In this document: positions 988 through 20,071 of the stretch, in pieces | Position numbering within the stretch: the stretch's first letter is position 1 | How the letters are laid out: every line of letters begins with the position of its first letter | Source of the DNA: an uncultured Lachnospiraceae bacterium | GTDB taxonomy: Bacteria; Bacillota; Clostridia; Lachnospirales; Lachnospiraceae | NCBI GenBank assembly: GCA_947178115.1 | Contig: CAMWXF010000001.1 | Location: forward strand, 1-26,591 | DNA length: 26,591 nucleotides | Direction of reading: 5' to 3' | The notes under the pieces: model-generated | Seen by the model: the letters and a program-made list of their open reading frames with translations, nothing else | Database searches by the model: none | What the model was told of the DNA's origin: nothing | Program-made: the position numbers and the translations under genes

Positions 988-1437
988 TTGCTGCACCTGC
1001 TTTCTTTTTTTTGATTTTGGGGACATTGCTTTTATAGATTCCTGCATGTAAGCAAAAATATACGGTAATAGTATCGGAGCATATAACTTGTTTTATATAT
1101 CGGATGATAGAAGAAGAAGGTTGATTTGGTGTTATGAGCGGACGGTTTTATGGAGTATGCGGTAAATAGGTATGAAATTGGGTTGGGACGAGAACAACAT
1201 GGATAGGATATAAAAATTATGAGTGGGAACTGTACTAGGTCTCAAGGGGCATAGGAAATAGGGCGAGAATATTAAAAAGCATCTGCAAATTGATAATTTC
1301 TTGAGATTTATACAGTATAATATTTTTATGAAAGAAAGCTATAAAATATATGTCACACATAAAAATAATATTTGAGGCGAGACAACAGAGAGTAATAGAA
1401 GTGGTTGGAATCAAATTATACTGAAAAAGAGGTATGT
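988..1437. other. Divergent regulatory gap between two two-component systems
   Basis: This 450-bp stretch separates the start of the LytTR regulator (minus) from the OmpR-family regulator (plus). I see no convincing gene in it. It is A+T-rich toward the right and holds the putative operator and -10 element described separately (1290-1321). A 13-codon frame at 1172-1213 was considered and rejected. No clear promoter was found for the minus-strand gene. Confidence 0.6.
1290..1321 (+). promoter_or_regulatory. Putative operator (11-bp direct repeat) and -10 box of the OmpR-type regulator gene
   Basis: TTGATAATTTC (1290-1300) is followed directly by TTGAGATTTAT (1301-1311), a tandem repeat with 11-bp spacing, then TATAAT at 1316-1321. 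A second possible -10, TATGAA, lies at 1327-1332. No -35 sits at the normal 17-bp distance, as expected of activated promoters. Tandem 10-11-bp half-sites are typical for OmpR/PhoB regulators. A similar repeat with the same spacing lies upstream of the ATPase gene at 3241-3262. Regulator binding is inference. Confidence 0.45.
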
Positions 1438-2109
1438 ATGGGGCAGAAACTATTGATCGTAGATGATGAAAAAGGGATTGTTGATATGCTGCGAAGTTAT
1501 TTTGAAGGCTGGTATGAAGTGATGACGGCGTACAGCGGCCGGGAGGCGTTAGCTAAGGCGGTGTTACAGCCGGATTTGATCCTGCTAGACATCAATATGC
1601 CTGAGATGGATGGATTGACAGTCTGTCAGAGAATCAGGGAGCATGTCGGCTGTCCGATTCTGTTTCTGACGGCACGGGTAGAGTCTTCCGACAAGATCAT
1701 CGGTTTTCAGGCAGGAGCCGACGATTATATTGTGAAACCTTTTGATCTGGATGAGCTGGCAGCGCGGGTGGCGGCGCACCTGCGGCGGGAGAAGAGGCGG
1801 CAGGAAAATGGTAATATCCGGTTTTTCGGTGAGCTGGTGATTGACTATTCGGGGCGGTCGGTCTCTGTTGACAATCAGGAAATACCGTTATCCAGAAAGG
1901 AATTCAATATTGTGGAGCTACTTTCTTTGAATGCGGGACAGGTGTTTGACAGAGAGCGGATCTATGAGAGGGTATGGGGAATTGACGGTGACGGAAACAG
2001 CGATACGGTCATGGAACATATTCGTAAGATCCGGGCGAAGCTTGCCGGACGCACTATGCACAGTTACATTGATACGGTCTGGGGGTGTGGCTACAAATGG
2101 AATGGATGA
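1438..2109 (+). CDS. OmpR/PhoB-family response regulator
   Basis: A 223-residue regulator with an N-terminal receiver and a C-terminal winged-helix domain. Seen: D9-D10, phosphoacceptor D51 in LLDINMPEMDG, T78 in LFLTAR, K100 in DDYIVKPF, and a winged helix ending in DTVWGCGYKW, the usual family signature. I start at ATG 1438 because AAAGAGG lies about five bases upstream; the in-frame TTG at 1405 would add a poor N terminus. The stop overlaps the kinase start by ATGA, so this is the first gene of a regulator-kinase pair next to an ABC transporter, the arrangement of VanRS/BceRS-like envelope-stress systems. Phosphorylated regulator probably acts at 1290-1311 and 3241-3262. Confidence 0.95.
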   Translation: MGQKLLIVDDEKGIVDMLRSYFEGWYEVMTAYSGREALAKAVLQPDLILLDINMPEMDGLTVCQRIREHVGCPILFLTARVESSDKIIGFQAGADDYIVKPFDLDELAARVAAHLRREKRRQENGNIRFFGELVIDYSGRSVSVDNQEIPLSRKEFNIVELLSLNAGQVFDRERIYERVWGIDGDGNSDTVMEHIRKIRAKLAGRTMHSYIDTVWGCGYKWNG

Positions 2110-3197
2110 AAAATATGGGATTGAAGAAATCCTTTGTGCTGCTGTCGGCGGTCAGTGTGGTTGTTTCGCTGCTTCTGATCGGCGCTGTATTTATAATCTG
2201 CGGAGCGATTGCGGATCAGTATCCGAGCGGCGGTATTAGCATAACTTCAGACGGTATTGTCAGGGAGTTGGAAGGGCCTACACGGGGACAGGCGCGTGTC
2301 ATAAATATACTGGGGTGGGTCGAGGTTTTCTCCTGTATTCTGGTTCCCGTGGGGTGCTTAGGGATTGCAAGTCTCATGTTCTATCAGCTTAAGCTGAAAA
2401 AGCCAATTGCGGTTTTGCAGATGGGAACAGAGCGGATCAGAGAACATGATCTTACTTTTTCCATACCGGAGATTTCGGGAGATGAATTGGGGCAGGTCTG
2501 TGCGGCATTTGAGACGATGCGCGCGGAGATGGTGCGGACGAATCAGGAACTGTGGAGGCAGGCGGAGGAACGTAAGCGGCTGAATGCGGCTTTTTCCCAT
2601 GATCTGCGCAATCCGGTCACTGTGTTAAAAGGAACGGTGAAGCTGCTGCAGCAGGGAACGGCGGACGAGCATGCATTGGAGCGATTGGAGACTTATGTTC
2701 TGCGTTTGGAACGGTATGTGGAAGCGATGAGCAGTATACAGCAATTGGAACAAATGCCGGTTCAGAAGAAAGAAGTACGTTTGTCCATGCTGCAGGATGA
2801 GGTGGAGGAGACGGCGAGGCTGCTTGCTCCGGGTGTGAGGACGGAAGTGTGCGTGAATGACAGGTGTCTGCACTCAAGTGTTGCATTGGATCACGGCTTA
2901 TTCCTGACGGTTGTGGAGAATCTGATCGGGAACGCGGCACGGTATGCGAGGAGCATAATTGATATAAATATCAGTGTCGCGAGGGAGGGGCTGATTCTGT
3001 CTGTAAACGATGACGGCAGCGGATATCCGGCGAAACTGATACAGGATGGACCGAAGCCCTTTGGAAAGATGGAAGAGGAGGCGGCACATTTCGGAATGGG
3101 TTTGTATATCTGTCAGATGTTGTGCATGAAGCACGGGGGCATACTTCGCTTGGAGAATGATAGGAACGGAGGTGCAAGGGCAACGGCATTATTTTAG
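2106..3197 (+). CDS. HAMP-domain sensor histidine kinase
   Basis: A 363-residue membrane kinase, the partner of the preceding regulator. Two membrane segments (about 10-32 and 72-94) flank an outside loop of only about 40 residues. A HAMP region follows (95-150), then the H-box FSHDLRNPVTVLKG with H165, the N-box ENLIGNAARYA (271-281), the G1 box DDGSGYP and the G2 box FGMGLYICQMLCMKHGG. All catalytic boxes look intact. I chose ATG 2106 for its ATGA overlap with the regulator; ATG 2097 and 2115 are possible. The small loop suggests that the stimulus may come through the neighbouring transporter or the membrane rather than a large ligand domain; that part is inference. Confidence 0.93.
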   Translation: MKNMGLKKSFVLLSAVSVVVSLLLIGAVFIICGAIADQYPSGGISITSDGIVRELEGPTRGQARVINILGWVEVFSCILVPVGCLGIASLMFYQLKLKKPIAVLQMGTERIREHDLTFSIPEISGDELGQVCAAFETMRAEMVRTNQELWRQAEERKRLNAAFSHDLRNPVTVLKGTVKLLQQGTADEHALERLETYVLRLERYVEAMSSIQQLEQMPVQKKEVRLSMLQDEVEETARLLAPGVRTEVCVNDRCLHSSVALDHGLFLTVVENLIGNAARYARSIIDINISVAREGLILSVNDDGSGYPAKLIQDGPKPFGKMEEEAAHFGMGLYICQMLCMKHGGILRLENDRNGGARATALF

Positions 3198-3240
3198 ATT
3201 TCATATGTTAAAGATTTATTTTTTATAAAAGTTTGTAATC

Positions 3241-3283
3241 TTGAGCATTCTTTGAGATTTACAAATTACACTCTTCTTATACA
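3241..3283 (+). promoter_or_regulatory. Putative operator and promoter of the ABC transporter genes
   Basis: TTGAGCATTCT (3241-3251) and TTGAGATTTAC (3252-3262) form an 11-bp-spaced direct repeat, matching in spacing and partly in sequence the repeat before the regulator gene. TATACA (3278-3283) could be the -10. No -35 stands at a normal distance, which fits an activator-dependent promoter. No convincing terminator separates the kinase gene from this site, so read-through is also possible. Confidence 0.42.
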
Positions 3284-3364
3284 ACAGGGAACGGTTGATT
3301 TTCTCGTAACATGAGCTACTGTGAGAAAAGCGGCTGCGCTGTTAATTATAAGGAGAGTGTTTTT

Positions 3365-4042
3365 ATGAATATTAAAGCAAAAGATTTGTCGAAAATCTAC
3401 GGAAGCGGCGAAAGCAGAATCGTCGCGCTGGACCGGGCGGATATGGAAATACGCCAGGGAGATTTTATCTCGATTATGGGACCGTCAGGCAGCGGTAAGA
3501 GTACGCTGCTGCACCTTTTGTCAGGATTGGATCATCCCTCATCGGGAAGTCTGACTTATGACGGCACGGATATATACGGGATGAAAGACAAGGAACTGTC
3601 TGCATTTCGCCGTCGTCGGGTTGGCTTTATTTTCCAGCAGTTTAATTTGCTGCCGGTGCTGACGGCACGGGAAAATATTGCCATGCCTATGTTGCTGGAC
3701 GGCAGACAGCCGGATCGGGAGTATCTGGCGGAACTGGCGGAGCTGTTAGGGATTGGCGGACGTTTGACACATCTGCCCCATGAGCTGTCGGGAGGTCAAC
3801 AGCAGAGGGTGGCGATCGCCAGAGCGCTGGTTGCCAAGCCGGACATTATATTTGCAGACGAACCCACGGGAAATTTGGACAGTAAGAGCGGCGGGGATGT
3901 CATGGATATGCTGGAGCGTATTCGCAATCAGATGGGAAAGACGCTTGTAATCATTACACACGACAGCAGAATAGCGCACAGGGCAGACAGGCAGTTTGTG
4001 ATTATGGACGGTGTCGTCACTGAAGTGCTTATGCGGAAATGA
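3365..4042 (+). CDS. ABC transporter ATP-binding protein (LolD/MacB/BceA type)
   Basis: A 225-residue ATPase, the normal length of this class. Seen in order: Walker A GPSGSGKST (39-47), Q-loop Q91 in FIFQQFNLLP, signature LSGGQQQR (141-148), Walker B IIFADEPTGNLD (161-172) with E166, and switch H199 in IITHD. I start at ATG 3365 because AGGAG lies at 3351-3355; the ATG at 3311 lacks a ribosome site. The gene ends in an ATGA overlap with a further ATG of the permease frame. It powers the FtsX-type permease that follows. Such pairs next to a two-component system usually give resistance to antimicrobial peptides or act on lipoproteins or envelope components; the substrate cannot be read from the sequence. 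Confidence 0.95.
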   Translation: MNIKAKDLSKIYGSGESRIVALDRADMEIRQGDFISIMGPSGSGKSTLLHLLSGLDHPSSGSLTYDGTDIYGMKDKELSAFRRRRVGFIFQQFNLLPVLTARENIAMPMLLDGRQPDREYLAELAELLGIGGRLTHLPHELSGGQQQRVAIARALVAKPDIIFADEPTGNLDSKSGGDVMDMLERIRNQMGKTLVIITHDSRIAHRADRQFVIMDGVVTEVLMRK

Positions 4043-4065
4043 CTTGGAAAGGAATGACGAAAATT

Positions 4066-6552
4066 ATGAAATCATATTTATCTCTTGCATGGAAAGAATT
4101 AAAGGCGCAGAAAGTGACATCTGTCCTGATCCTGCTTGCGGTTATCTTATCGACGATCGCAACAACTGCTGTGGGACAGTCTGTCGGTATCCTGCAGTCG
4201 ATGCGGATAGAGCAGGCAGCCGGATTGAACGGTGACCGTTATGCCACGTTTCATCAGTTGACGGAGGAACAGAGCAATACGTTACACGGAGATCCGCGGT
4301 TAAAGGATGTGGGAAGCCTTATAACGGTGGGATCGACAGAGCTTGGCAACAGCAGCTTAACTCTTTTTCTGAGAGAGTATTACGGAGACGCGCTGAAAGC
4401 ATATCGTGAGATCGGAAAGATTAAGGAAGGGCGTCTTCCGGCATCGGCAGGAGAGATCGCGCTGCCGGAGGATGCTCTGCAATATCTGGGAATCGAGAAA
4501 AGTGTCGGGGAGAGGGTAACGCTTCCGCTCAGAGCTTTGCTACTTATAGATGATCAGCCGAACTATGAATATACGGCGGATTTTATCCTGACGGGAATTC
4601 TGGAAAACAGTTATCTCGGATATACTACCGGAATCGTGGAGGGCATCGTAGGCGAGGGAACAGCGCAGTCTTTGCTTCCCGAACGGTATCTGCGTTATTC
4701 GACAAATTTTAAGACGGTAAGTCTTAAGGAATTTCAGGCGGTTGTAGATGATCTGGCAAAGCAGCTTGATATTACGGAAAGACAGGTGCAGTATAACTGG
4801 GTTCTGTTAGAGGCTTTAGGAGCGGATTATGCGGATCGGGAGGAAATGGATGCGAATATAGGATTTCCTTTTATGATGGCTGCATGTGTGATGGTAGGGG
4901 TATTGATTCTGCTGGCGGCGGGACTGGTCATCTATAATATCTTAAAAGTAGCTGTCACAAAACGGATACGGGAGTACGGTACACTGCGGGCCATCGGAGG
5001 TGAGAGCAGGCAGCTCTATACACTGGTCACGGTTCAGATCATGCTGTTAAGCGTCATAGGGCTGCCGCTTGGAATGCTGCTTGGAGTTCTGTCGGCAAAA
5101 GGGATTCTCATAGCGGCAACGGGGCTTCTCAGTCCGGATCTTTTTATGGCGGATAGTACACAGCAATTAAACGATATGATTGCGGAAAGCGGCAGCGGCG
5201 GAATATTACCTCTGGTTGTGAGTGGGGCGGTCACATTGTTGTTTGCCGTGCTGGCAGCGTATCCCTCGGCGGTGTATGCGTCCCGTGTCTCACCCACGGT
5301 CGCCATGAGCGGGCAGGCAATTAAAGTAAAGCGACGCAGCCGTAAAGCAAAAAGAATTCGGAATTTTGAAGCATATTATGCGAGACTTAATTTGAAGCGC
5401 AACCGTGGCAGGACGGTAATCACGATTCTCTCAATGGTGATGAGTATCACGGTTTTTGTGGCATTGCAAGGCTTCAGCGGTTTGCTGGATACAAGCCGGG
5501 ATGTACAGGCGATGCATACGGGAGATTACAGTGTGACTAATGAAACGGTAGGAATTGCACCGCAAAGTGTATCGGAATTAAGGCAGCGAGAGGAAGTTAC
5601 GGCGTTGGCTACCACGAAACTTGCCGTGTATTCGGCGGATGAAAACGGAAACATGGAAATCGATCAGGATATTGCCCTGCAGTCGTGGGAAAGCTTCCAG
5701 ATTGCTGCGGTTGACGAGGAACGATTGGAGCGCTACGGAACGGAGAACGAGCTGAGTGAAGAGGAACGGGAGGCGGTCAGAAATGGCGAAGCATGTCTGG
5801 TCATGAATCCGATTCCTTTTGCGTATCAGGGGGAAACCTTAGAGCACACGCAGCTGGCAGCAGGAGATACGATTACGGTCAATGGAAGAAAAGTGAGGGT
5901 AGCAGGTATTGCCTACAATCCGGTCAGTATTAATAACGACGGATTTGTAAACGGGGTACAGATCATAGGAACGGATGCACTTTATGACGCTTTGACGGGA
6001 GATGACAGATATTCGGAAATCTACCCGACGCTTGCGGACAACGTAGAGCCGGAAGCGTTCGAGAAATGGCTGGATGAATGGTGCATAGAAAATCCGGGAA
6101 CACACTGGCTGTCTTATCGCCAGTCGGATGCACAGATGGCGGAGAGTTTTGAACAGGTCCGGCTGCTATGCTGGGGGTTGATCTTATTTATTGGGCTGAT
6201 CGGCATTTTGAATATTATTAATACGGTTTACACGAATATTCACACTCGTGTAAATGAGATTGGTATGCAGAGAGCCATCGGCATGAGTAACGTAAGTCTT
6301 TACAAGACGTTTCTGTGGGAGGGAGCTTACTACGGGCTGATCGCTTCCGGTATTGGTGCGGTCTGTGGATTTCTTTGCAGTACTTTAGTGGAAGCGGCGG
6401 CAAACGACGGTATGCAGCTTTACACGGTTCCTGTCGTGCCTATTCTGGAGGCAGCAGCGGTATCTGTGGCAGCCTGCCTGATTGCCACGGCGATCCCACT
6501 CAGAGGAATCGGTAAGTTGAGTATCGTGGAGTCGATTGAGACAGTGGAATAG
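4066..6552 (+). CDS. FtsX-like ABC permease with tandem FtsX/MacB domains
   Basis: Large permease of about 828 residues. It is a duplicated unit: a first membrane segment (20-43), a large outside region (about 44-268), three membrane segments with the motif REYGTLRAIGGE (about 302-313), a basic linker, another single segment (about 450-470), a second outside region, and a last three-segment FtsX block with the motif VNEIGMQRAIGMS. The repeated E-x-G-x-x-R-A-I-G loop is the usual contact with the ATPase. ATG 4066 (MKSYLSLAWKELKAQK) is preferred for its family-like N terminus and the upstream GGAAAGGA. ATG 4039, which overlaps the ATPase stop as ATGA, would add nine residues. The large outer domains are more like MacB/LolCE machinery than a classical BceB permease. 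Confidence 0.93.
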   Translation: MKSYLSLAWKELKAQKVTSVLILLAVILSTIATTAVGQSVGILQSMRIEQAAGLNGDRYATFHQLTEEQSNTLHGDPRLKDVGSLITVGSTELGNSSLTLFLREYYGDALKAYREIGKIKEGRLPASAGEIALPEDALQYLGIEKSVGERVTLPLRALLLIDDQPNYEYTADFILTGILENSYLGYTTGIVEGIVGEGTAQSLLPERYLRYSTNFKTVSLKEFQAVVDDLAKQLDITERQVQYNWVLLEALGADYADREEMDANIGFPFMMAACVMVGVLILLAAGLVIYNILKVAVTKRIREYGTLRAIGGESRQLYTLVTVQIMLLSVIGLPLGMLLGVLSAKGILIAATGLLSPDLFMADSTQQLNDMIAESGSGGILPLVVSGAVTLLFAVLAAYPSAVYASRVSPTVAMSGQAIKVKRRSRKAKRIRNFEAYYARLNLKRNRGRTVITILSMVMSITVFVALQGFSGLLDTSRDVQAMHTGDYSVTNETVGIAPQSVSELRQREEVTALATTKLAVYSADENGNMEIDQDIALQSWESFQIAAVDEERLERYGTENELSEEEREAVRNGEACLVMNPIPFAYQGETLEHTQLAAGDTITVNGRKVRVAGIAYNPVSINNDGFVNGVQIIGTDALYDALTGDDRYSEIYPTLADNVEPEAFEKWLDEWCIENPGTHWLSYRQSDAQMAESFEQVRLLCWGLILFIGLIGILNIINTVYTNIHTRVNEIGMQRAIGMSNVSLYKTFLWEGAYYGLIASGIGAVCGFLCSTLVEAAANDGMQLYTVPVVPILEAAAVSVAACLIATAIPLRGIGKLSIVESIETVE

Positions 6553-7963: not shown

Positions 7964-8022
7964 TTGCATATTTTTACCATTGGATGTATGATGTGATAAA
8001 TAAGCAATGTATGGAGGAAAGT

Positions 8023-8862
8023 ATGAAGAAGATTATTGTGACAGGCGCCAATGGGCAGTTGGGACGTGCCATTAATTTACAGTATGCAGGCAGTACGGAG
8101 TATGAACTGATCAATACGGATGTCGGGGAACTGGATATTACCAGGGTAGACAAGGTTATGGAATTTGTGCGGGGAATACAGCCCTATGCGATTATCAACT
8201 GCGCGGCGTATACGGCGGTGGAGGCGTGCGAGAATGAAGAGGATCTTGCTTTTCGGATCAATGCCATCGGACCGAGAAATCTAAGCATTGCGGCTACAGA
8301 AACGGGAGCGAAGTTAATGCATGTTTCCACGGACTATGTGTTCGACGGCAACGGCGTAAGACCGTATCGGGAGACGGATCCAGTGGGACCTCAGGGAGCG
8401 TATGGCAGAACCAAGCTTGCAGGGGAGAATTTCGTGAAAGAATTCAGTGACAGGCATTATATTGTGCGTACCGCGTGGCTGTATGGTGACGGCAAGAACT
8501 TTGTCAAGACCATGCTCCGGTTGTCAGAGTCGAATGATAAGGTGAGGGTTGTGAAGGATCAGGTAGGGTCACCTACCAGTGCGGCGGAACTGGCAAAGGC
8601 GATCGCATATCTGCTGCCCACGGATAATTACGGACTGTTCCATGGAACCTGCGAAGGGGATTGCAGCTGGGCGCAGTTTACGGAGGAGATTTTCAGAATT
8701 GCCGGTAAAGATACGGTAGTGGAGGGTATCACATCGGAAGAGTACGGCGCGGCAGTGAAGAGACCTGCATACTCGATTCTGGAAAACTATATGTTCAAGA
8801 TGACTACCGACTTCATGTTTGCAGACTGGCACGATGCGATTGCAGAGTATCTGAAGCAGTAA
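8023..8862 (+). CDS. rmlD: dTDP-4-dehydrorhamnose reductase-like protein (RmlD family)
   Basis: A 279-residue extended short-chain dehydrogenase. The N-terminal NAD(P) site is TGANGQLG (7-14), VSTDYVFDG (101-109) matches RmlD proteins, and the catalytic pair is Y127 and K131 in AYGRTKLAGE. The family reduces dTDP-4-keto-L-rhamnose to dTDP-L-rhamnose in the cytosol. I start at ATG 8023 because GGAGG lies five bases upstream; the ATG at 7984 has none. It is the first gene of the polysaccharide cluster. The other three rhamnose genes (rmlA, rmlB, rmlC) are not in the window, so either they are elsewhere or this enzyme reduces another 4-keto sugar. Confidence 0.87.
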   Translation: MKKIIVTGANGQLGRAINLQYAGSTEYELINTDVGELDITRVDKVMEFVRGIQPYAIINCAAYTAVEACENEEDLAFRINAIGPRNLSIAATETGAKLMHVSTDYVFDGNGVRPYRETDPVGPQGAYGRTKLAGENFVKEFSDRHYIVRTAWLYGDGKNFVKTMLRLSESNDKVRVVKDQVGSPTSAAELAKAIAYLLPTDNYGLFHGTCEGDCSWAQFTEEIFRIAGKDTVVEGITSEEYGAAVKRPAYSILENYMFKMTTDFMFADWHDAIAEYLKQ

Positions 8863-9022: not shown

Positions 9023-10093
9023 ATGCAGAAAATAGCGTTAATTACGGGAATAACGGGGCAGGATGGTTCTTATCTTGCGGAGTTTTTGTTGGAGAAGGGA
9101 TATGAAGTGCATGGGTTAATTCGCAGGCACAGTATATCCAATACGATGCGGATCGATCATCTGATCCGATCAGATTATCACAAGGTAAAATTCTTCCTGC
9201 ATTTTGCTGATACGACGGATTCCAGTAATCTTATGCGGCTCATTGCGGAGATTCGTCCGACGGAAGTATATAATCTGGCGGCACAGTCGCATGTGGGCGT
9301 GTCCTTTGATGTGCCGGAGTACACGGCGGAAGCGACCGGTGTGAGTACTTTGAAACTGCTTGAGGCGATTCGCGTCAACGGTGGGACATGCAGATTCTAT
9401 CAGGCTTCCACTTCCGAACTGTTCGGCGGAATTCCGGAGACGGCGCCCCAGAGTGAGAAGACGCCTTTTTATCCGAAGAGTCCTTACGGTGCGGCGAAGC
9501 TGTATTCCTACTGGATCACGGTAAATTATAGGGAATCTTATAATATGTTTGCCTGCAACGGCATTCTGTTTAATCATGAATCACCGAGGCGTGGAGAGAA
9601 TTTCGTCACAAGAAAGATTACGCTGGCGATTGCAAATATCATTGCCGGAAAGCAGGAGAAATTGTCTCTGGGCAATATGAATGCGAAGCGTGACTGGGGA
9701 TTTGCCGGCGATTATGTGAAGGGCATGTGGCTTATGCTGCAGCAGGACAAGGCCGACGATTATGTGCTGGCCACGAATGAGACGCATACGGTCAGAGAAT
9801 TTGTGGAAGCGGCATTCGGTGAGCTTGGCATTGCGATCCGATGGGAAGGAAGCGGCGTGAATGAAAAAGGGTACGATGCAGCAAGCGGGAGACTGCTGGT
9901 GGATGTGAATCCCGAGTTCTATCGTCCGGCAGAGGTTGAGTTCCTCTGGGGTAACTGTGAGAAGGCGGAACGGGAACTTGGCTGGAAGAGAGACGTAGAT
10001 TTCAAGAAGCTGGTTGCCATGATGATGGATGCTGATCTGCAGGAGATTGCGGGGATGAGCTGTGCTGAATACAAGAGCAGTCAGTCAAAGTAA
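9023..10093 (+). CDS. gmd: GDP-mannose 4,6-dehydratase
   Basis: A 356-residue enzyme making GDP-4-keto-6-deoxy-mannose, the first step to GDP-L-fucose. Seen: the NADP site GITGQDG (9-15), [14 protein letters not shown] (34-47), the catalytic T130 and E132 in STSELFGG, Y155 and K159 in [12 protein letters not shown], and [16 protein letters not shown] (184-199), all diagnostic of Gmd. AAAGGAAT stands before the ATG at 9023. Its partner fcl lies 2.1 kb downstream, separated by an unrelated membrane protein gene, whereas the two are often adjacent. The 160-bp gap before it shows no clear promoter or terminator. Confidence 0.96.
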
Positions 10094-12179: not shown

Positions 12180-13121
12180 ATGAATAAGACAGACAAAATC
12201 TATGTAGCAGGACACAGAGGACTGGTAGGAAGCGCTATTGTGCGGAATTTAAATGCAAAGGGTTATACCAACGTGATCGGCAGAACCCATAAGGAACTGG
12301 ATCTGACGAACCAGCAGGCGGTCATAGAATTTTTCGAAGAACAGAGACCTGACGTGGTGGTACTGGCAGCAGCGAAAGTGGGAGGTATCAATGCCAACAA
12401 TACGACACCGGCAGAGTTTGCCTATGAGAATATGCAGATTCAATGCAATGTGATCAAATGTTGTCATGATTATCAGGTAAAGAAGTTATTATTTCTCGGA
12501 AGTACTTGCATCTATCCACGTATGGCGCCGCAGCCGATTCCGGAAGATGCGTTATTGACAGGACCGCTGGAGGAGACGAACGAGGCGTATGCGATCGCTA
12601 AGATCGCCGGTCTGGAGATGTGCAAATTCTTCAAGAGACAGTACGGAGACGATTTTATAAGCTGTATGCCGACGAATCTGTACGGGCCCTATGACAATTA
12701 TGATCTGGAGGGATCACATGTTATGCCGGCCATGATTCGTAAGTTCCATGAGGCCAAGGTAAACGGCGCTCCTACGGTGGAATTATGGGGAACCGGCACA
12801 CCGCTTAGGGAGTTTCTGTACGTGGATGATATGGCGGATGCATGCGTGTTTTTACTGGAAAATTACAGTGGGGAGCAGCATGTGAATATCGGTACGGGTA
12901 AGGAAGTTACGATCAAAGAACTGGCACAGACAGTACAAAAAGCGGTGGGTTATCAGGGCGAGATCGTTTGGAATAAGGACATGCCGGACGGTACGCCGCG
13001 CAAACTGACGGATGTGACGAAGCTCCACGGATTGGGTTGGAATCATAAGGTTGAATTGGAAGAGGGCGTGCAGCTTGCTTATCAGTGGTTCAGGGAAAAT
13101 GTAGATTCCGCCAGAATGTAA
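12180..13121 (+). CDS. fcl: GDP-L-fucose synthase
   Basis: A 313-residue epimerase/reductase that turns GDP-4-keto-6-deoxy-mannose into GDP-L-fucose with NADPH. Seen: the cofactor motif GHRGLVG (11-17), [12 protein letters not shown] (63-74), S108 and C110 in GSTCIYP, and Y137 and K141 in [18 protein letters not shown] and [12 protein letters not shown] later in the protein are also typical. GAGGT stands five bases before ATG 12180. Together with gmd it supplies GDP-fucose, so the polysaccharide made here probably contains L-fucose. The gene seems to have its own promoter inside a long inverted repeat. Confidence 0.96.
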
Positions 13122-13147
13122 GACAGTGCGTAGGCGATAACTTACAA

Positions 13148-13176
13148 TTTACATAATGCATATTTTTTGCTATTAT
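13148..13176 (+). promoter_or_regulatory. Promoter of the Spo0A-domain gene, covered by a palindrome
   Basis: TTTACA (13148-13153), a 17-bp spacer and TATTAT (13171-13176) make a good housekeeping-type promoter. The inverted repeat TTACATAAT (13149-13157) and ATTATGTAA (13172-13180) covers both elements almost exactly, as an operator for a dimeric repressor would. Confidence 0.6.
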
Positions 13177-13181
13177 GTAAA

Positions 13182-13216
13182 TGCGTAATAAAACTACACG
13201 TTTAATATATTACGCA
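13182..13216 (+). promoter_or_regulatory. 5'-leader hairpin next to the ribosome site of the Spo0A-domain gene
   Basis: TGCGTAATA (13182-13190) and TATTACGCA (13208-13216) form a 9-bp stem with a 17-base loop, starting about where transcription from the 13148 promoter should begin. It ends directly before the ribosome site AAGGAG (13217-13222). It could influence translation or be another operator. Confidence 0.5.
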
Positions 13217-13233: not shown

Positions 13234-13614
13234 ATGTTACAAGAAAATGTTTTGTCCAGACAAGAACTGGAACAGGCAATCTCCGGTTTCATGTTGGAGT
13301 TGGGTGTACCGGCACACCTACGGGGCTATCAATACCTAAGGAGCGCCGTGGAGATGTGCACGGAAGACATGGAACTAGTAGGCAGTGTTACGAAACTGCT
13401 GTATCCGGATCTGGCGAAGATGTATCGTACAACAGACCAGAAGATTGAACGGGCGATCAGAAATGCGATCGAAGTGTCCTGGGAGAGAGGAAACAGCGAT
13501 TTGTTCGAGCGGTTATTCGGTTACTGCAATTCGAACGAATACAGCAGACCTACAAACAGTGAGTATATTGCGACAGTGGCGGACTATATTCGTCTGACAT
13601 ACGGACTGATATAG
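13234..13614 (+). CDS. Stand-alone Spo0A C-terminal DNA-binding domain protein
   Basis: A 126-residue protein that matches only the output domain of the sporulation regulator Spo0A. Seen: LGVPAHLRGYQYLRSAVEM (23-41), LVGSVTKLLYPDLAKMY (48-64), the recognition-helix region KIERAIRNAIEVSWERGN (70-87), LFGYCNS and PTNSEYIATVADYIR (106-120), all close to the classical domain. The phosphoacceptor receiver domain is absent and only about 20 residues precede the DNA-binding fold. AAGGAG precedes ATG 13234. It has its own promoter and terminator, so it is a separate unit within the polysaccharide cluster. It may be a phosphorylation-independent regulator of the cluster, or may compete for Spo0A sites; both ideas are inference. 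Confidence 0.9.
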   Translation: MLQENVLSRQELEQAISGFMLELGVPAHLRGYQYLRSAVEMCTEDMELVGSVTKLLYPDLAKMYRTTDQKIERAIRNAIEVSWERGNSDLFERLFGYCNSNEYSRPTNSEYIATVADYIRLTYGLI

Positions 13615-13626
13615 CTGCCGGAACAG

Positions 13627-13652
13627 GGAAGAGATACGTCTCTTCCTTTTTT
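13627..13652 (+). terminator. Intrinsic terminator after the Spo0A-domain gene
   Basis: GGAAGAGA (13627-13634), loop TACG and TCTCTTCC (13639-13646), followed by six T, is a textbook rho-independent terminator 12 bp after the stop codon. Confidence 0.92.
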
Positions 13653-13662
13653 CGTCTATGTA

Positions 13663-13671
13663 TGCTAAAAT
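13663..13671 (+). promoter_or_regulatory. Extended -10 promoter for the downstream glycosyltransferase genes
   Basis: TGCTAAAAT (TG at 13663, TAAAAT at 13666-13671) lies just after the terminator. The -35 position reads TTCCTT, a poor match. It could restart transcription for the long glycosyltransferase run that begins at 13765. Confidence 0.4.
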
Positions 13672-13764
13672 AAACGGAGACCTGACTGTCGGTGCCGCGG
13701 GGTGTGCGGGCGGATATAAACCGACGCAGGCGGATATCAATAGATGAAAGGCACGGTAATTTGC

Positions 13765-14694
13765 ATGAAATTGCTCAGTGTTGTAGTACCCTGCTATAAC
13801 GAAGAAGAGAATATCAGGGACTTCTATGATGAATTGTTTCGGAATGCTCCTTTTTTCAAGGAAAAGGAAATCGAGGTGGAACTGCTTTATATAGATGACG
13901 GATCTAAGGATCAGACGGTAGAAGAGGTTAAGAAGCTGTGCAGAGAGGATGCACGTGTCCATCTGCGGTCTTTATCCAGAAACTTCGGAAAGGAAGCGGC
14001 GATCTACGCAGGATTACAGAAATCTAAAGGAGATTATGTGGTGCTGATGGACGTTGATCTGCAGGACCCGCCGTCGCTTTTGCCGGAAATGTACGACTAT
14101 ATCGAGCAGGGGTATGACTCTGTGGCTACGAGGCGTGTCACGAGGAAAGGAGAGCCGCCGGTGCGTTCTTTTTTTGCGAGGATGTTCTACCGGATTATGA
14201 ATAAGATTTCCAGGACGGAGATCGTGGACGGAGCCAGAGATTACAGATTAATGTCGCGGCAGGTGGTGGATGCGATCCTTGCCATGACGGAATATAACCG
14301 ATTTACCAAGGGTATTTTCGGCTGGGTAGGCTATGAAACAAAGTGGATGGAATATGAGAACATCGAGCGCAGGAAGGGTGAGACGAAATGGTCCTTCTGG
14401 AAGCTGTTTGCCTATTCGTTAGAGGGAATCACTGCGTTTTCCACGGTGCCGCTGACAATTGCGGCGCTGATTGGCGCGCTGTTCTGCATGCTGGCATTTG
14501 TCATGATTATTATTATCATTGTGAAGACGCTAATCTTCGGTGATCCGACTTCGGGATGGCCGTCTCTTGTATGTATCATTATGATGGTCAGCGGAGTGCA
14601 GCTGTTTTGTCTCGGAATCGTGGGGCAATACTTATCGAAAACATACATGGAAGTGAAGAAGAGACCTATTTATCTTGTCAAAGAGGATATTTAA
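13765..14694 (+). CDS. GT2 polyprenyl-phosphate glycosyltransferase (GtrB/DPM1-like)
   Basis: A 309-residue enzyme with an N-terminal GT-A domain and two C-terminal membrane segments (about 226-254 and 266-289). Seen: VVPCYNEEEN (8-17), YIDDGSKDQT (42-51), SRNFGKEAAIYAGL (71-84), the metal-binding D96 and D98 in MDVDLQDPP, and RDYRLMSR (158-165), the pattern of GtrB/CsbB enzymes that load a sugar onto undecaprenyl phosphate at the inner face of the membrane. The loaded sugar is normally flipped and used outside by a GT-C enzyme; two GT-C-like proteins are in this cluster. ATG 13765 gives the family N terminus; ATG 13744 is possible. No GtrA-like flippase is adjacent. Confidence 0.9.
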   Translation: MKLLSVVVPCYNEEENIRDFYDELFRNAPFFKEKEIEVELLYIDDGSKDQTVEEVKKLCREDARVHLRSLSRNFGKEAAIYAGLQKSKGDYVVLMDVDLQDPPSLLPEMYDYIEQGYDSVATRRVTRKGEPPVRSFFARMFYRIMNKISRTEIVDGARDYRLMSRQVVDAILAMTEYNRFTKGIFGWVGYETKWMEYENIERRKGETKWSFWKLFAYSLEGITAFSTVPLTIAALIGALFCMLAFVMIIIIIVKTLIFGDPTSGWPSLVCIIMMVSGVQLFCLGIVGQYLSKTYMEVKKRPIYLVKEDI

Positions 14695-15564
14695 ATGAAC
14701 GGACTGGTCAGCATTATCGTACCGATCTATCGGGCCGAAGCCTATATCCCCGATACGATTGCGATGGTAGTAAGACAGACATATACGGAGTGGGAACTGT
14801 TGTTGATCGATGACTGTTCACCTGACGGCAGCACACAGGTGGTTCGCGACACACTGAGAGAGCAGAAGTGGAGCAGCCGGTCTTCAGTGCAGCAGGATGA
14901 TAAGGAAACGGAACCGGAAGCAGTGCGTTCCGTAGGGAGTGAAGGTATCTGTACAGTCGAGGAATACAATGATGACAAAGGACGGCGGATCCTGTTGGTC
15001 AGTAAAGAACACAACGAGGGAGCAGCCGCCGCGCGCAACACCGGACTGGATATGGCAGGCGGCAGGTATATTGCTTTTCTGGATGCGGATGACGTGTGGT
15101 TCCCGGAGAAACTGGAGAAGGAACTGTTGTTTATGAAGGACAGGCAGGCGGGATTCGTGTTCACGGCGTATGAGTTCGGTGATGAGCAGGCGAATCCTAC
15201 CGGCAAAGTGGTGCATGTTCCCGCACAGCTGCGTTACGGGCAGGCGCTGTCGCGGACAGTGATCTTTACGACGACGGTATTATTGGATCGGGAGAGCATT
15301 CCAGACAAGCTGATACGCATGCCCGGTATAGAGAGCGAGGACACGGCGACATGGTGGCAGATCCTGAGGGCGGGCAATACCGCCTACGGTCTGAACGAGG
15401 TGCTGGCCATATACCGCAGACCGGCGAAGTCGTTGTCTTCCAATAAATTGACGGCGATCAGACGGATCTGGAATCTGTATCGCAGGCAGGAGAAGCTGTC
15501 CGTGATTACGAGTGTGCGCTATTTTATTCCGTGGGCATACCGGGCATGCATGCGGCGTCTGTAG
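14695..15564 (+). CDS. GT2 glycosyltransferase with a hydrophilic insertion
   Basis: A 289-residue cytosolic GT-A enzyme. Seen: SIIVPIYRAEAYI (6-18), LLIDDCSPDGS (36-46), NEGAAAARNTGLD (107-119) and the D130/D132 metal-binding motif in AFLDADDVWFPEKL. It adds one sugar to the lipid-linked repeat unit; donor and acceptor cannot be told. Residues of about 55-97 form a charged insertion (Ser, Gln, Glu and Asp-rich) between the nucleotide-binding half and the conserved asparagine motif, which makes this region longer than usual. The start codon follows the previous stop directly and AAAGAGGAT provides the ribosome site, so the two genes are coupled. Confidence 0.9.
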   Translation: MNGLVSIIVPIYRAEAYIPDTIAMVVRQTYTEWELLLIDDCSPDGSTQVVRDTLREQKWSSRSSVQQDDKETEPEAVRSVGSEGICTVEEYNDDKGRRILLVSKEHNEGAAAARNTGLDMAGGRYIAFLDADDVWFPEKLEKELLFMKDRQAGFVFTAYEFGDEQANPTGKVVHVPAQLRYGQALSRTVIFTTTVLLDRESIPDKLIRMPGIESEDTATWWQILRAGNTAYGLNEVLAIYRRPAKSLSSNKLTAIRRIWNLYRRQEKLSVITSVRYFIPWAYRACMRRL

Positions 15565-15678: not shown

Positions 15679-17055
15679 ATGAAACGTGTCGAATCTTTGA
15701 AAAGACTTATTATATTGCAGTTATCCTTTATCGGATTACTTATTCATACGGCGGTCTATGCATATTTCTGGTTTCAGGATTATTATCCGTATCTGCTTTA
15801 TCACGGTAAGGCGAAGTTCTTTCGAAACGGGCATCTTCTCATTATACTGATCTATTTCGTGCTGCTGTTTTTTTTCGCCAACATGTACGGTGTGCTGAAG
15901 ATCGGTTATCTAAAGGCTACGGATGTTTTTATCTCGGAAGTTTTTGCACTTCTGTTTGTCAATGTGATCTCTTATTTTCAGATCTCCCTAATGGCGAACT
16001 GGGTGGTACAGGTGCGTCCGATTGTCTGGACGATGCTGATACAGATCATTTTTTCCATTGTGTGGGTGTTCGTGTGCGATACGTGTTATTATAAAGTGTT
16101 TCCGCCCAGAGAAATCCTGATCATTCATGGAGAGAGGCCGATAGATGACATTGTGGCCAAATTTGAGTCGCGTAAAGAGAAGTACAAGATCGCAAGGAGC
16201 ATGAATATTTCGGAAGGTATGGAGGCTGTCAAGAAAGAGATTACGGGAGAGTATGGTGCGGTGGTACTGTGGGACATTCCCGTCAGTGACAGAAATTATC
16301 TGCTGAAATATTGTTACAGTAAGTCGATTCGTGTCTATATGATGCCGAAGATATCAGACGTTTTGGTAAAAGGGGCGGATCAGCTCCATCTGTTTGACAC
16401 GCCCGTCTATCTGACGAGAGAGTATTCTCTCAAGGTGGAGCAGCGTCTGGCCAAGAGGATGATCGATCTGATCTGCTCGCTGATCCTGTTAGTGATCGCG
16501 TCCCCGTTTATGCTGATTACGGCGATTGCAATCAAGGTATATGACGGCGGTCCGGGCTTGTATAAACAGGTTCGCTGCACGATCGGACGCAGGGAATTCT
16601 ATATCCTGAAGTTTCGGAGTATGAAAGTGGATGCCGAGAAAGACGGTGTGGCGAGGCTGGCATCTAAGAACGATTCGCGCATCACACCGATCGGCAGGTT
16701 TATCCGTGCGACAAGGATCGACGAATTGCCGCAGCTCCTCAACATTCTGAGAGGGGACATGTCTTTTATCGGGCCCAGACCGGAGCGGCCGGAGATCATA
16801 GATCAGTATATGGAGGAGATGCCCGAGTTTGCTTTCCGCATGAAAGTGAAGGCCGGGCTCGCGGGGTATGCGCAGGTGTATGGCAAGTATAATACAACGC
16901 CTTACGATAAATTAAAGCTGGATCTGACTTATATTGAACAGTATTCGGTATGGCTGGATCTGAAGCTTATGCTTCTGACACTTAAGATTCTCATTAAGCC
17001 GGAGAGCACGGAGGGCGTGGAGAATACGCAGACTACAGCGATGAAAAAGAAATGA
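15679..17055 (+). CDS. Exopolysaccharide priming polyprenyl glycosylphosphotransferase
   Basis: A 458-residue membrane enzyme that starts the lipid-linked repeat unit by moving a sugar-1-phosphate from a nucleotide sugar to undecaprenyl phosphate. Four membrane segments (about 10-32, 51-70, 80-101, 115-135) precede a CoA-binding-like region. The C-terminal bacterial sugar transferase domain (from about 255) holds a membrane-embedded hairpin (262-288), KFRSM (311-315), the catalytic D348-E349 in RIDELPQLLNILRGDMSFIG, and GPRPERPE (365-372). The architecture matches WbaP/CpsE-type long enzymes rather than short PglC types. GAGGT lies before ATG 15679. The stop overlaps an in-frame ATG of the next gene. 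The first sugar cannot be read from the sequence. Confidence 0.95.
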   Translation: MKRVESLKRLIILQLSFIGLLIHTAVYAYFWFQDYYPYLLYHGKAKFFRNGHLLIILIYFVLLFFFANMYGVLKIGYLKATDVFISEVFALLFVNVISYFQISLMANWVVQVRPIVWTMLIQIIFSIVWVFVCDTCYYKVFPPREILIIHGERPIDDIVAKFESRKEKYKIARSMNISEGMEAVKKEITGEYGAVVLWDIPVSDRNYLLKYCYSKSIRVYMMPKISDVLVKGADQLHLFDTPVYLTREYSLKVEQRLAKRMIDLICSLILLVIASPFMLITAIAIKVYDGGPGLYKQVRCTIGRREFYILKFRSMKVDAEKDGVARLASKNDSRITPIGRFIRATRIDELPQLLNILRGDMSFIGPRPERPEIIDQYMEEMPEFAFRMKVKAGLAGYAQVYGKYNTTPYDKLKLDLTYIEQYSVWLDLKLMLLTLKILIKPESTEGVENTQTTAMKKK

Positions 17056-18970: not shown

Positions 18971-20071
18971 ATGATTCTGTATATTACGGTGGCGGCAGTT
19001 ACGGTACTGCTTGCGGGCATGGTGAACAGCCGGCCGGTCATACAACCGTATATGACTACGAGACAACAGATGTGTAACCGCGTCTGCCTTCTGTCTGTAT
19101 TTCTGATCCTGTTTGCGCTGTCGGCGTGCAGGCTGAATGTGGGGAACGACTACGCCAAATACGTGGAGTTCATGCATCTGGTCAACTGTGATTCGTACGT
19201 GCCCACGGAGATCGGATTTAATCTGCTTGTAAAATTAATCTACGGCTTATCCGGTTTTGAAAATTATCTGCTTGTCTTTGCGGTGTATGCTTTTGTCACA
19301 GTGTTTTTGTTCCTGTCAGCGATGTATGAGCAGAGCGATGATTTTCCGTTGACATTTTTCCTGTTTATGATGCTGGGATATTATTTCCAGACATTCAGTA
19401 CGGTACGCTATTATCTGGCGCTGGCGGTGGCACTCTATTCCATGAAATTTGTGCAGCGCGGGCAATGGGGCAGATTCGTCATTTTGATTCTGCTCGGATC
19501 GGCGTTTCATAAGTCCTTGCTTGTGGTGATTCCGTTATACTATCTGGCATCCAAGGCGTGGAAGAAGTGGCAGCTTGCTATTGCGGCTCTATTCTGTACA
19601 ACCTTCCTGTTCGCACAGGACTTTTATTTAAAAGTGGTGATTCTGCTCTATCCGACCTATGAAGATACGGAGTATCTGGAGGGCGGAACGAGTTACATCA
19701 ATATTCTGCGGTGCCTTGCGGTGCTTGTTTTCGCGGGAATCGTGTACTTTATGCAGAAAGACAGTCGTTTTGGGTTCTATTTCTATCTGAATCTGGGAGC
19801 GCTCGTGCTGTATGTGTTCTGCTCCTTCCTGCCGATTATATCCCGCATCGGATATTATCTGACAATCAGTCACATACTGTATCTGCCGATGTTGCTTAAG
19901 CAGGTGGAAAATGCGAAGTGGCGCAGGCTGTTCCGATTGGGGATTCTGCTGGCGGCGATTTTATATTTTGCCGTATACATGAGCCGGGCGGATCAGGACG
20001 GGACGTTGATTCTGCCTTATAAATCTTTCCTGTTCCACGATATGGTTAATATTTTATCGGATGTGAATTAA
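18971..20071 (+). CDS. epsG: EpsG-family polysaccharide polymerase (Wzy-like)
   Basis: A 366-residue protein with about nine to ten membrane segments. The family pattern is clear: CRLNVGNDYAKYVEF (53-67) in the first outside loop, PTEIGFNLLVKLI (78-90), STVRYYLALAVALYSM in the middle and SAFHKSLLVVIPLYYLA. EpsG proteins are thought to join repeat units on the outer face of the membrane, together with the Wzz-like protein encoded just upstream. AAAGGA ends 12 bases before ATG 18971 and the gene starts 10 bp after the preceding stop. It is the only polymerase candidate in the window. Confidence 0.9.
   Translation: MILYITVAAVTVLLAGMVNSRPVIQPYMTTRQQMCNRVCLLSVFLILFALSACRLNVGNDYAKYVEFMHLVNCDSYVPTEIGFNLLVKLIYGLSGFENYLLVFAVYAFVTVFLFLSAMYEQSDDFPLTFFLFMMLGYYFQTFSTVRYYLALAVALYSMKFVQRGQWGRFVILILLGSAFHKSLLVVIPLYYLASKAWKKWQLAIAALFCTTFLFAQDFYLKVVILLYPTYEDTEYLEGGTSYINILRCLAVLVFAGIVYFMQKDSRFGFYFYLNLGALVLYVFCSFLPIISRIGYYLTISHILYLPMLLKQVENAKWRRLFRLGILLAAILYFAVYMSRADQDGTLILPYKSFLFHDMVNILSDVN

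Follow-up and report, generated by a model that had tools for sequence, protein, structure and literature searches.

A stand-alone Spo0A output domain, here called S2, is encoded among surface-polysaccharide genes in the window (the whole 26,591-nucleotide stretch of Lachnospiraceae DNA analyzed here), and it goes together with a second gene, S1, which is the lineage's own spo0A without most of its receiver. The lineage probably controls its Spo0A switch in some way other than phosphate sensing. We give about even chances to a joint model in which S1 and S2 make up a two-gene, phosphorylation-independent Spo0A system with GCGATR promoter control and a link to polysaccharide.

S2 and its polysaccharide locus

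S2 (positions 13234-13614, plus strand) is an open frame for a protein of 126 amino acids. The Pfam model PF08769 (Spo0A_C) covers the protein end to end, at profile positions 1-104 of 104, with an E-value of 6.2e-38 and a score of 129.4 bits against a cut-off of 25. TIGR02875, the model for full Spo0A, matches only through its positions 144-258 of 262, and the 146.8 bits obtained do not reach its cut-off of 200. Structures of the Spo0A C-domain (PDB 1lq1 and 1fc3) match the S2 sequence at E-values of 3.5e-38 and 7.9e-38. The AlphaFold model of S2 has the Spo0A output fold, with six helices and a mean pLDDT of 92.7, and a Foldseek search with it returns the same two structures as best matches, 1lq1 with a TM-score of 0.90 by target. 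(AlphaFold inputs for S1 and S2 were alignments of 30 sequences each, chosen from the sequences collected.) The receiver with a phospho-acceptor Asp that marks canonical Spo0A is absent from S2 in profile searches, and since the frame is only 140 codons long from stop to stop, there is no in-frame receiver upstream. The initial annotation, which had taken S2 for a Spo0A output domain standing alone and had allowed that a receiver in frame upstream would undo this reading, is borne out by these matches.

The genes around S2 were assigned by Pfam, and those given here with coordinates lie on the plus strand. An RmlD-like sugar-nucleotide reductase (7984-8862) and a GDP-mannose 4,6-dehydratase (9023-10093) are followed by a 608-aa protein without a Pfam match, by an Epimerase-family protein (12180-13121) that by our reading is GDP-fucose-synthase-like (GFS), and then by S2. 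Past S2 come two family 2 glycosyltransferases (GT2; 13744-14694 and 14695-15564), a bacterial sugar transferase (15679-17055) that is likely the initiating enzyme of the polysaccharide, a 359-aa protein without a Pfam match, a glycosyltransferase, and an EpsG-family protein (18971-20071). The epimerase as upstream neighbor of S2, the first GT2 as downstream neighbor, and the sugar transferase are supported by synteny as well. Upstream of the rmlD-like gene (window 7984), a TTGCATAATTT...GGTTGTATGATA block recurs in several loci of the genus. Elsewhere in the window, at 1405-6552, a response regulator, a histidine kinase, an ABC ATPase and an FtsX-like permease stand in a row, which we take to resemble a peptide-sensing or resistance module.

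This placement is kept in relatives. The synteny sample comprises the window with 56 genus-like loci (L035-L090), set against 32 lower-identity loci (L091-L114 and eight of L174-L183, with L179 and L181 left out because they duplicate L096 and L097). One or more of four marker neighbors (GT2, sugar transferase, epimerase, GDP-mannose dehydratase) lies within six genes of S2 in 57 of 57 genus loci and in 28 of the 32 others, counts that are not independent because the genus group includes some near-identical genomes. The four loci without a marker neighbor are L091, L094 (where the contig ends one gene downstream), L098 and L107. For example, the S2-type gene of L098 leads a set of DegT aminotransferase, polysaccharide deacetylase and GT2; L091 is like it by gene lengths, and L107 is so in part. 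Conservation beside polysaccharide genes, the lack of which was to count against the initial annotation, extends across several Lachnospiraceae genera.

A spo0A gene without its receiver

A single Spo0A_C gene besides S2 is present in the window's own genome, which is 64% complete. This gene is S1, with 172 codons; GlgA follows it, and spoIVB is not seen beside it. S1 scores 158.7 bits against PF08769. Its surroundings match those of spo0A in part: NCBIfam models find recN, spoIVB and glgA around S1 in L168 as around full-length Spo0A in L190, and S1 is followed by glgA just as canonical spo0A is. Positions compared by hand put spoIVB less than 1 kb directly upstream of S1 in 30 of the 77 genomes of the genus; in the remaining ones it is farther off, on another contig, or not found. 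S2 has no spoIVB neighbor. In receiver-less genomes of other genera the gene after S1 is usually as long as glgA, and GlgA is confirmed for L155, L161 and L163.

About 90 receiver residues, the phospho-acceptor region included, are lost in frame from S1, leaving a conserved stub of 33 residues. The first 33 residues of S1 and of full-length Spo0A have a mean identity of 26% (35 S1 and 8 full-length sequences), against 7.2% when columns are permuted (standard deviation 2.7%, maximum 19%), and 0 of 5000 permutations reach the observed identity. In the 34 S1 proteins with both ends placeable, 24-37 aa separate the stub from the output domain, versus 114-120 aa in the 8 full-length ones; missing from S1 are the phospho-acceptor motif that 8 of 8 full-length proteins have and the conserved Lys motif that 7 of 8 have. 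The stub is conserved among 30 aligned S1 proteins, and AlphaFold models it at low confidence, with block means of pLDDT 50-64. The Pfam model Response_reg finds no match in two S1 proteins and does match the full-length control L186. An in-frame TAG interrupts one S1 (genome G108, L157), and the S1 listed for G024 is a fragment of 95 codons. Assembly error or a broken Spo0A was considered as the cause of receiver loss and rejected: 24 genera show this structure, and so does a genome assembled as one contig.

S1 is present in 74 of the 77 genus genomes (missing from G021, G034 and G053), and S2 orthologs are also present in 74 (missing from G031, which has a 39% match, from G063, and from G066, which is 97% complete). 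TIGR02875 matches are found in 77 of 77, the best of them beginning at position 103 to 171 of 262, and among the matches listed, which go down to 92.9 bits, there is no full-length Spo0A; the one match that covers the receiver as well as the output domain has this lowest score and belongs to a divergent regulator in G048. The initial annotation had expected the genome to have a full-length Spo0A too, with S2 perhaps competing against it. The first expectation fails, spo0A itself being receiver-less, and competition with a normal phosphorylated Spo0A is unsupported, none being listed in the 77 genomes.

The same pair is found beyond the genus. In an even sample of the family (150 genomes), 105 genomes match the full Spo0A model at E 1e-25: 91 have matches running from receiver to output domain, 2 are split or partial (G190 and G223), and 12 are receiver-less, 2 from the window's genus and 10 from other genera. 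All ten of the latter have S2. A search for S2 at a strict cut-off in 396 family genomes yields 25 genomes from 21 of 307 genera (G173, G178 and G210, receiver-less in the family sample, are not among these matches). Each of 15 further S2 genomes, one of them the one-contig genome, has S1 and S2, and among the matches listed for those 15 the only spanning ones are divergent regulators of at most 97 bits (G403, G549, G384 and G391). S1 and S2 thereby occur together in 24 genera, two of the 15 sharing a genus with the earlier ten. Outside the family, the matches listed for 128 genomes across the class at E 1e-35 include no output-only Spo0A. These searches across the family, of the kind proposed at the outset, place S2 in several Lachnospiraceae genera, mostly beside polysaccharide genes.

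Two other kinds of Spo0A_C gene turn up in these searches. Divergent regulators of about 260 aa that have both a receiver and a Spo0A_C domain (L376-L379, from G403, G048, G549 and G166) occur sporadically in receiver-less and in full-length genomes, and in L377 and L379 the gene adjoins one of 472-476 aa. They are rejected as a replacement for Spo0A: being sporadic, they cannot be a general one. Two stand-alone Spo0A_C genes (L184:7449-8009 and L185:7611-8144), with a full-length Spo0A also present, branch outside both S1 and S2.

Sporulation genes are largely retained. SpoIVA scores above cut-off in 71 of the 77 genus genomes and SpoIVB in 72; four of the six genomes without a SpoIVA match are less than 90% complete, and neither protein has a match in the window's own genome, at 64% completeness. 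SpoIIAA and SpoIIE are each found in 30 of 30 genomes (15 receiver-less and 15 full-length). The SpoIIE match starts at profile position 410 or later in 15 of 15 receiver-less genomes, whereas in 14 of 15 full-length genomes it starts no later than position 314. In the SpoIIE proteins of L208-L218 and L220-L223, the N-terminal, presumably membrane, region is unmatched and the frames are 386-495 aa long.

Promoter elements and the recognition helix

Promoter and terminator calls at S2 rest on consensus matches, which alone are weak evidence. A sigma-A-like promoter, TTTACA-17-TATTAT with TG before the -10, is predicted at 13148-13176 (plus strand). A GCGATA box (13134-13139, plus strand) opens a 20-bp element, GCGATAACTTACAATTTACA (13134-13153, plus strand), that recurs in all 57 genus loci, never with more than 4 mismatches. 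A perfect 11-nt inverted repeat (13147-13182) lies over the promoter, and a perfect 9-nt inverted repeat (13182-13216) lies between the promoter and the start codon. A terminator-like hairpin stands 3' of S2 (13625-13648, plus strand), with a similar one in 45 of 56 genus loci, which agrees with the description of S2 as a single-gene unit with its own terminator. In loci outside the genus the next gene often starts less than 60 nt past S2, and no terminator is seen between the two (16 of 32). A TATGNTAAAAT-like sequence past the S2 terminator (window 13625-13700) recurs in relatives and is perhaps the promoter of the next glycosyltransferase.

A search of 40 genus genomes for a GCGATR regulon, using the 20-mer with at most 2 mismatches, gives scattered matches about as frequent as those of the reversed control. 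The exceptions are S2 itself and two sites just above S1 (in G002 and G039), and on account of these two sites S1 promoters were tested for GCGATR. S1 and S2 promoters do have this element in common, about 14 nt above the -35. An arrangement was defined as GCGATR, 7-9 nt, a -35 with at most 3 mismatches, 16-18 nt, and TATAAT with at most 1 mismatch; in the genus S1 promoters the -35 hexamer is poor. The arrangement is found at S1 in 10 of 10 genus genomes and 17 of 24 from other genera, and at S2 in 47 of 57 genus loci, versus 0.01-0.06 per set in shuffles; of the distinct S2 loci of other genera, 11 of 43 have it. It is found at 1 of 8 canonical spo0A, 0 of 30 spoIIE and 1 of 30 spoIIAA promoters. 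All these counts come from a definition made after S1 and S2 promoters had been viewed. In promoters fetched only afterward, the arrangement occurs at 20 of 20 genus S1 genes (close relatives of the ten already seen) versus 2 of 40 canonical spo0A genes. Conversely, the 0A box TGTCGAA occurs at 0 of those 20 S1 genes versus 28 of the 40 canonical ones (shuffle means 0.67 and 1.38). Misplaced starts affect three canonical genes of the 40 (L320, L326 and L335), and leaving them out gives 2 of 37 for the arrangement and 26 of 37 for the 0A box.

In S2 promoters the 0A box itself is commoner than in shuffles, at 7 of 57 genus loci (shuffle mean 1.3) and at 6 of the 32 other loci (shuffle mean 0.8), so S1 may act on some S2 genes; of the distinct S2 loci of other genera, 7 of 43 have the box in plain form. 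Among the genes that canonical Spo0A, a protein binding 0A boxes, activates are spoIIA, spoIIE and spoIIG. A Spo0A-type spoIIE promoter, defined as TTTGACAAA, 20-22 nt, and TATAAT with at most 1 mismatch (0.03% in shuffles), is found in 6 of 15 receiver-less versus 10 of 15 full-length genomes, the G173 gene having only 78 nt of upstream sequence in this test. It is found at spoIIE in 0 of 5 genomes of the window's genus, one of which (G039) has a doubtful start. Regions upstream of spoIIAA show no clear 0A-type signal in the 15 receiver-less or the 15 full-length genomes.

Within the polysaccharide locus of the genus, 0A boxes are no more frequent than by chance above seven EPS genes. Above some of these genes GCGATR on its own is commoner than in shuffles, most of all at the sugar transferase (29 of 54 versus 8.7). 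In all of the 25 examples inspected there for which the limit of the preceding gene is known, it falls inside the last part of that gene's coding sequence. The full arrangement is not found above the sugar transferase gene; in the genus loci it occurs 51 times close to S2 and 9 times elsewhere in 1.37 Mb. These results speak against direct control of the EPS genes by S2, a possibility that the initial annotation raised.

The two recognition-helix differences that the initial annotation pointed out, Lys for Arg and Asn for His, prove to be real and are nearly fixed. In S2 (helix QKIERAIRN in the window) Asn is found in 91 of 91 sequences and Lys in 81 of 91, against His and Arg in all of the aligned 35 S1 and 8 full-length sequences; among 82 distinct S2 sequences, N is found in 82 and K in 73. 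The E-R-x-x-R of the helix is kept in 53 of 53. We assume from the literature on 1lq1 that the substituted residues contact DNA. In a FastTree phylogeny the 53 S2 sequences form one clade with support 1.0, apart from S1 and full-length Spo0A (0.70), and S1 alone as a clade has a support of only 0.47. Pairwise comparisons with the window indicate that S2 is under purifying selection: dN/dS is 0.02-0.07 in 8 of 16 pairs, values that are rough because dS (1.1-2.5) is near saturation, and of the other pairs four have a dN of zero and four a saturated dS.

A proposed switch without phosphorylation, its alternatives and known systems

The comparisons support a history that begins in an ancestor of this Lachnospiraceae lineage, where spo0A lost most of its receiver by an in-frame deletion, becoming S1, and where a duplicated output domain, S2, settled in a surface-polysaccharide locus. 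Because neither protein has a receiver through which the phosphorelay could switch it, the activity of each would be set by how much of it is made. By our reading, phosphorylation control may have been replaced by transcriptional control through the GCGATR element, and at S1 of the window's genus the GCGATR box, at the level of sequence, takes the place of the 0A box in the canonical spo0A promoter. With its canonical recognition helix kept, S1 probably continues to recognize 0A boxes, the one at spoIIE among them. For S2, with its Arg to Lys and His to Asn changes, the GCGATR box is a candidate site; the reverse complement of this box, YATCGC, resembles the TGTCGA core of the 0A box. That S2 rather than another regulator would bind there is a guess from the two substitutions and the likeness of the boxes. 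Several results weigh against the joint model: most S2 promoters of other genera do not have the arrangement and some have a plain 0A box, no common box ties S2 to EPS genes, spoIIE of the window's genus has no Spo0A-type promoter (0 of 5), three genus genomes are without an S2 ortholog, and the window's own incomplete genome has no match to SpoIVA or SpoIVB. S2 would then control itself and S1, and would link the state of the surface polysaccharide to sporulation or stationary-phase genes. It is a tentative step further to propose that this lineage, a large one among gut Lachnospiraceae, enters sporulation without Spo0A phosphorylation, with the receiver deleted, S1 and S2 as a transcriptional switch, a new promoter code, and S2 in the surface-polysaccharide locus recognizing a changed 0A box.

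S2 could instead act locally on the polysaccharide operon in which it lies, binding EPS-cluster promoters to switch capsule or EPS synthesis on or off largely independently of sporulation, a reading that we think unlikely and yet deserving of weight. In its favor are the synteny (all 57 genus loci and 28 of the 32 others), the short, terminator-free distances to the next gene in 16 of 32 loci outside the genus, and the lead position of the S2-type gene in L098, similarly L091 and partly L107. In the genus, however, a terminator stands between S2 and the next gene, the seven EPS genes have no enrichment of 0A boxes above them, the GCGATR arrangement keeps to the S2 promoter apart from 9 scattered matches, and the GCGATR excess above the sugar transferase falls in the end of the preceding gene in the examples inspected. 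It is also conceivable, and in our view improbable, that sporulation is being lost, with S1 and S2 now serving in the control of stationary phase, glycogen or envelope and the spore genes left behind as remnants. The retention of SpoIVA (71 of 77) and SpoIVB (72 of 77), of SpoIIAA and the SpoIIE phosphatase part in 15 of 15 receiver-less genomes, and the purifying selection on S2 argue against such decay; the restriction of SpoIIE matches to the C-terminal part in those 15 genomes, the six genomes without SpoIVA (four of them less than 90% complete), and the lack of a recognizable Spo0A-type promoter at spoIIE of the window's genus (0 of 5) are consistent with it.

S2 might also be an antagonist that occupies 0A boxes without activation and so holds S1 back. 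For this reading, S2 has the fold of the Spo0A C-domain (1lq1, TM-score 0.90), keeps the E-R-x-x-R in 53 of 53, and is present in every receiver-less genome of the 150-genome sample and in the 15 further genomes. The recognition-helix residues have nevertheless changed in a fixed way, which favors a different site for S2, and we regard antagonism as quite improbable. Recent arrival of S2 from a phage or other mobile element is scarcely credible. Truncated Spo0A genes are reported from viromes (PMC10294663), and 13 phage records match S2; S2 is nevertheless a single clade, syntenic across genera among bacterial polysaccharide genes, rather than a phage-borne truncated Spo0A. The best phage record, MT838085.1, one of two inspected among the 13, is a bacterial EPS-like fragment with a GT2 at 76% and part of a sugar transferase at 84% identity. 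This record (L284, 7 kb, filed as Bacteriophage sp.) carries an S2 gene and is a possible false positive for surveys of Spo0A in viromes.

If the two-gene system proposed here is real, it would be a natural counterpart of constitutive laboratory alleles and would change how sporulation is predicted from genomes. Spo0A phosphorylation counts as the gate to sporulation, and gut bacteria are classed as spore formers by whether they have spo0A (Browne 2021, PMC8340488). A clade that keeps its spore genes with the receiver deleted would show that this gate can be rebuilt. Loss of spo0A has been reported for some gut Lachnospiraceae with many spore genes (PMC11170972), and we infer that these losses may in part reflect such shortened genes. 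The open-licence literature searched holds no description of a receiver-less bacterial Spo0A, which is weak evidence of novelty, as most subscription papers lie outside that search.

S1 and S2 share with canonical Spo0A (TIGR02875; receiver plus Spo0A_C) the fold and family of the output domain, and S1 has the same neighbor in glgA and, for 30 of the 77 genomes of the genus, also in a directly preceding spoIVB. They differ in having neither receiver nor phospho-acceptor, in being two proteins and not one, and, in the window's genus, in the GCGATR promoter that S1 has instead of a 0A box. The divergent receiver-bearing regulators (about 260 aa, 90-105 bits) resemble them in a Spo0A_C-like domain and are found in both kinds of genome; unlike S1 and S2, they have a receiver, another recognition helix and a sporadic distribution. 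A further comparison is with the 2023 work of Schwartz et al. on virome spo0A. The receiver-less truncated genes reported there from gut viromes (PMC10294663) likewise have the output domain only, and the authors suggest that normal host signals are not required; S2, in contrast, is syntenic among bacterial polysaccharide genes, with a host Spo0A that is also receiver-less. In the laboratory, receiver loss is represented by sad67, an internal receiver deletion in B. subtilis spo0A. PMC4689505 describes this allele as constitutively active; S1 would likewise be a Spo0A free of phosphorylation control. The S1 deletion differs from it in being natural, fixed, marked by a conserved stub, and spread over 24 genera.
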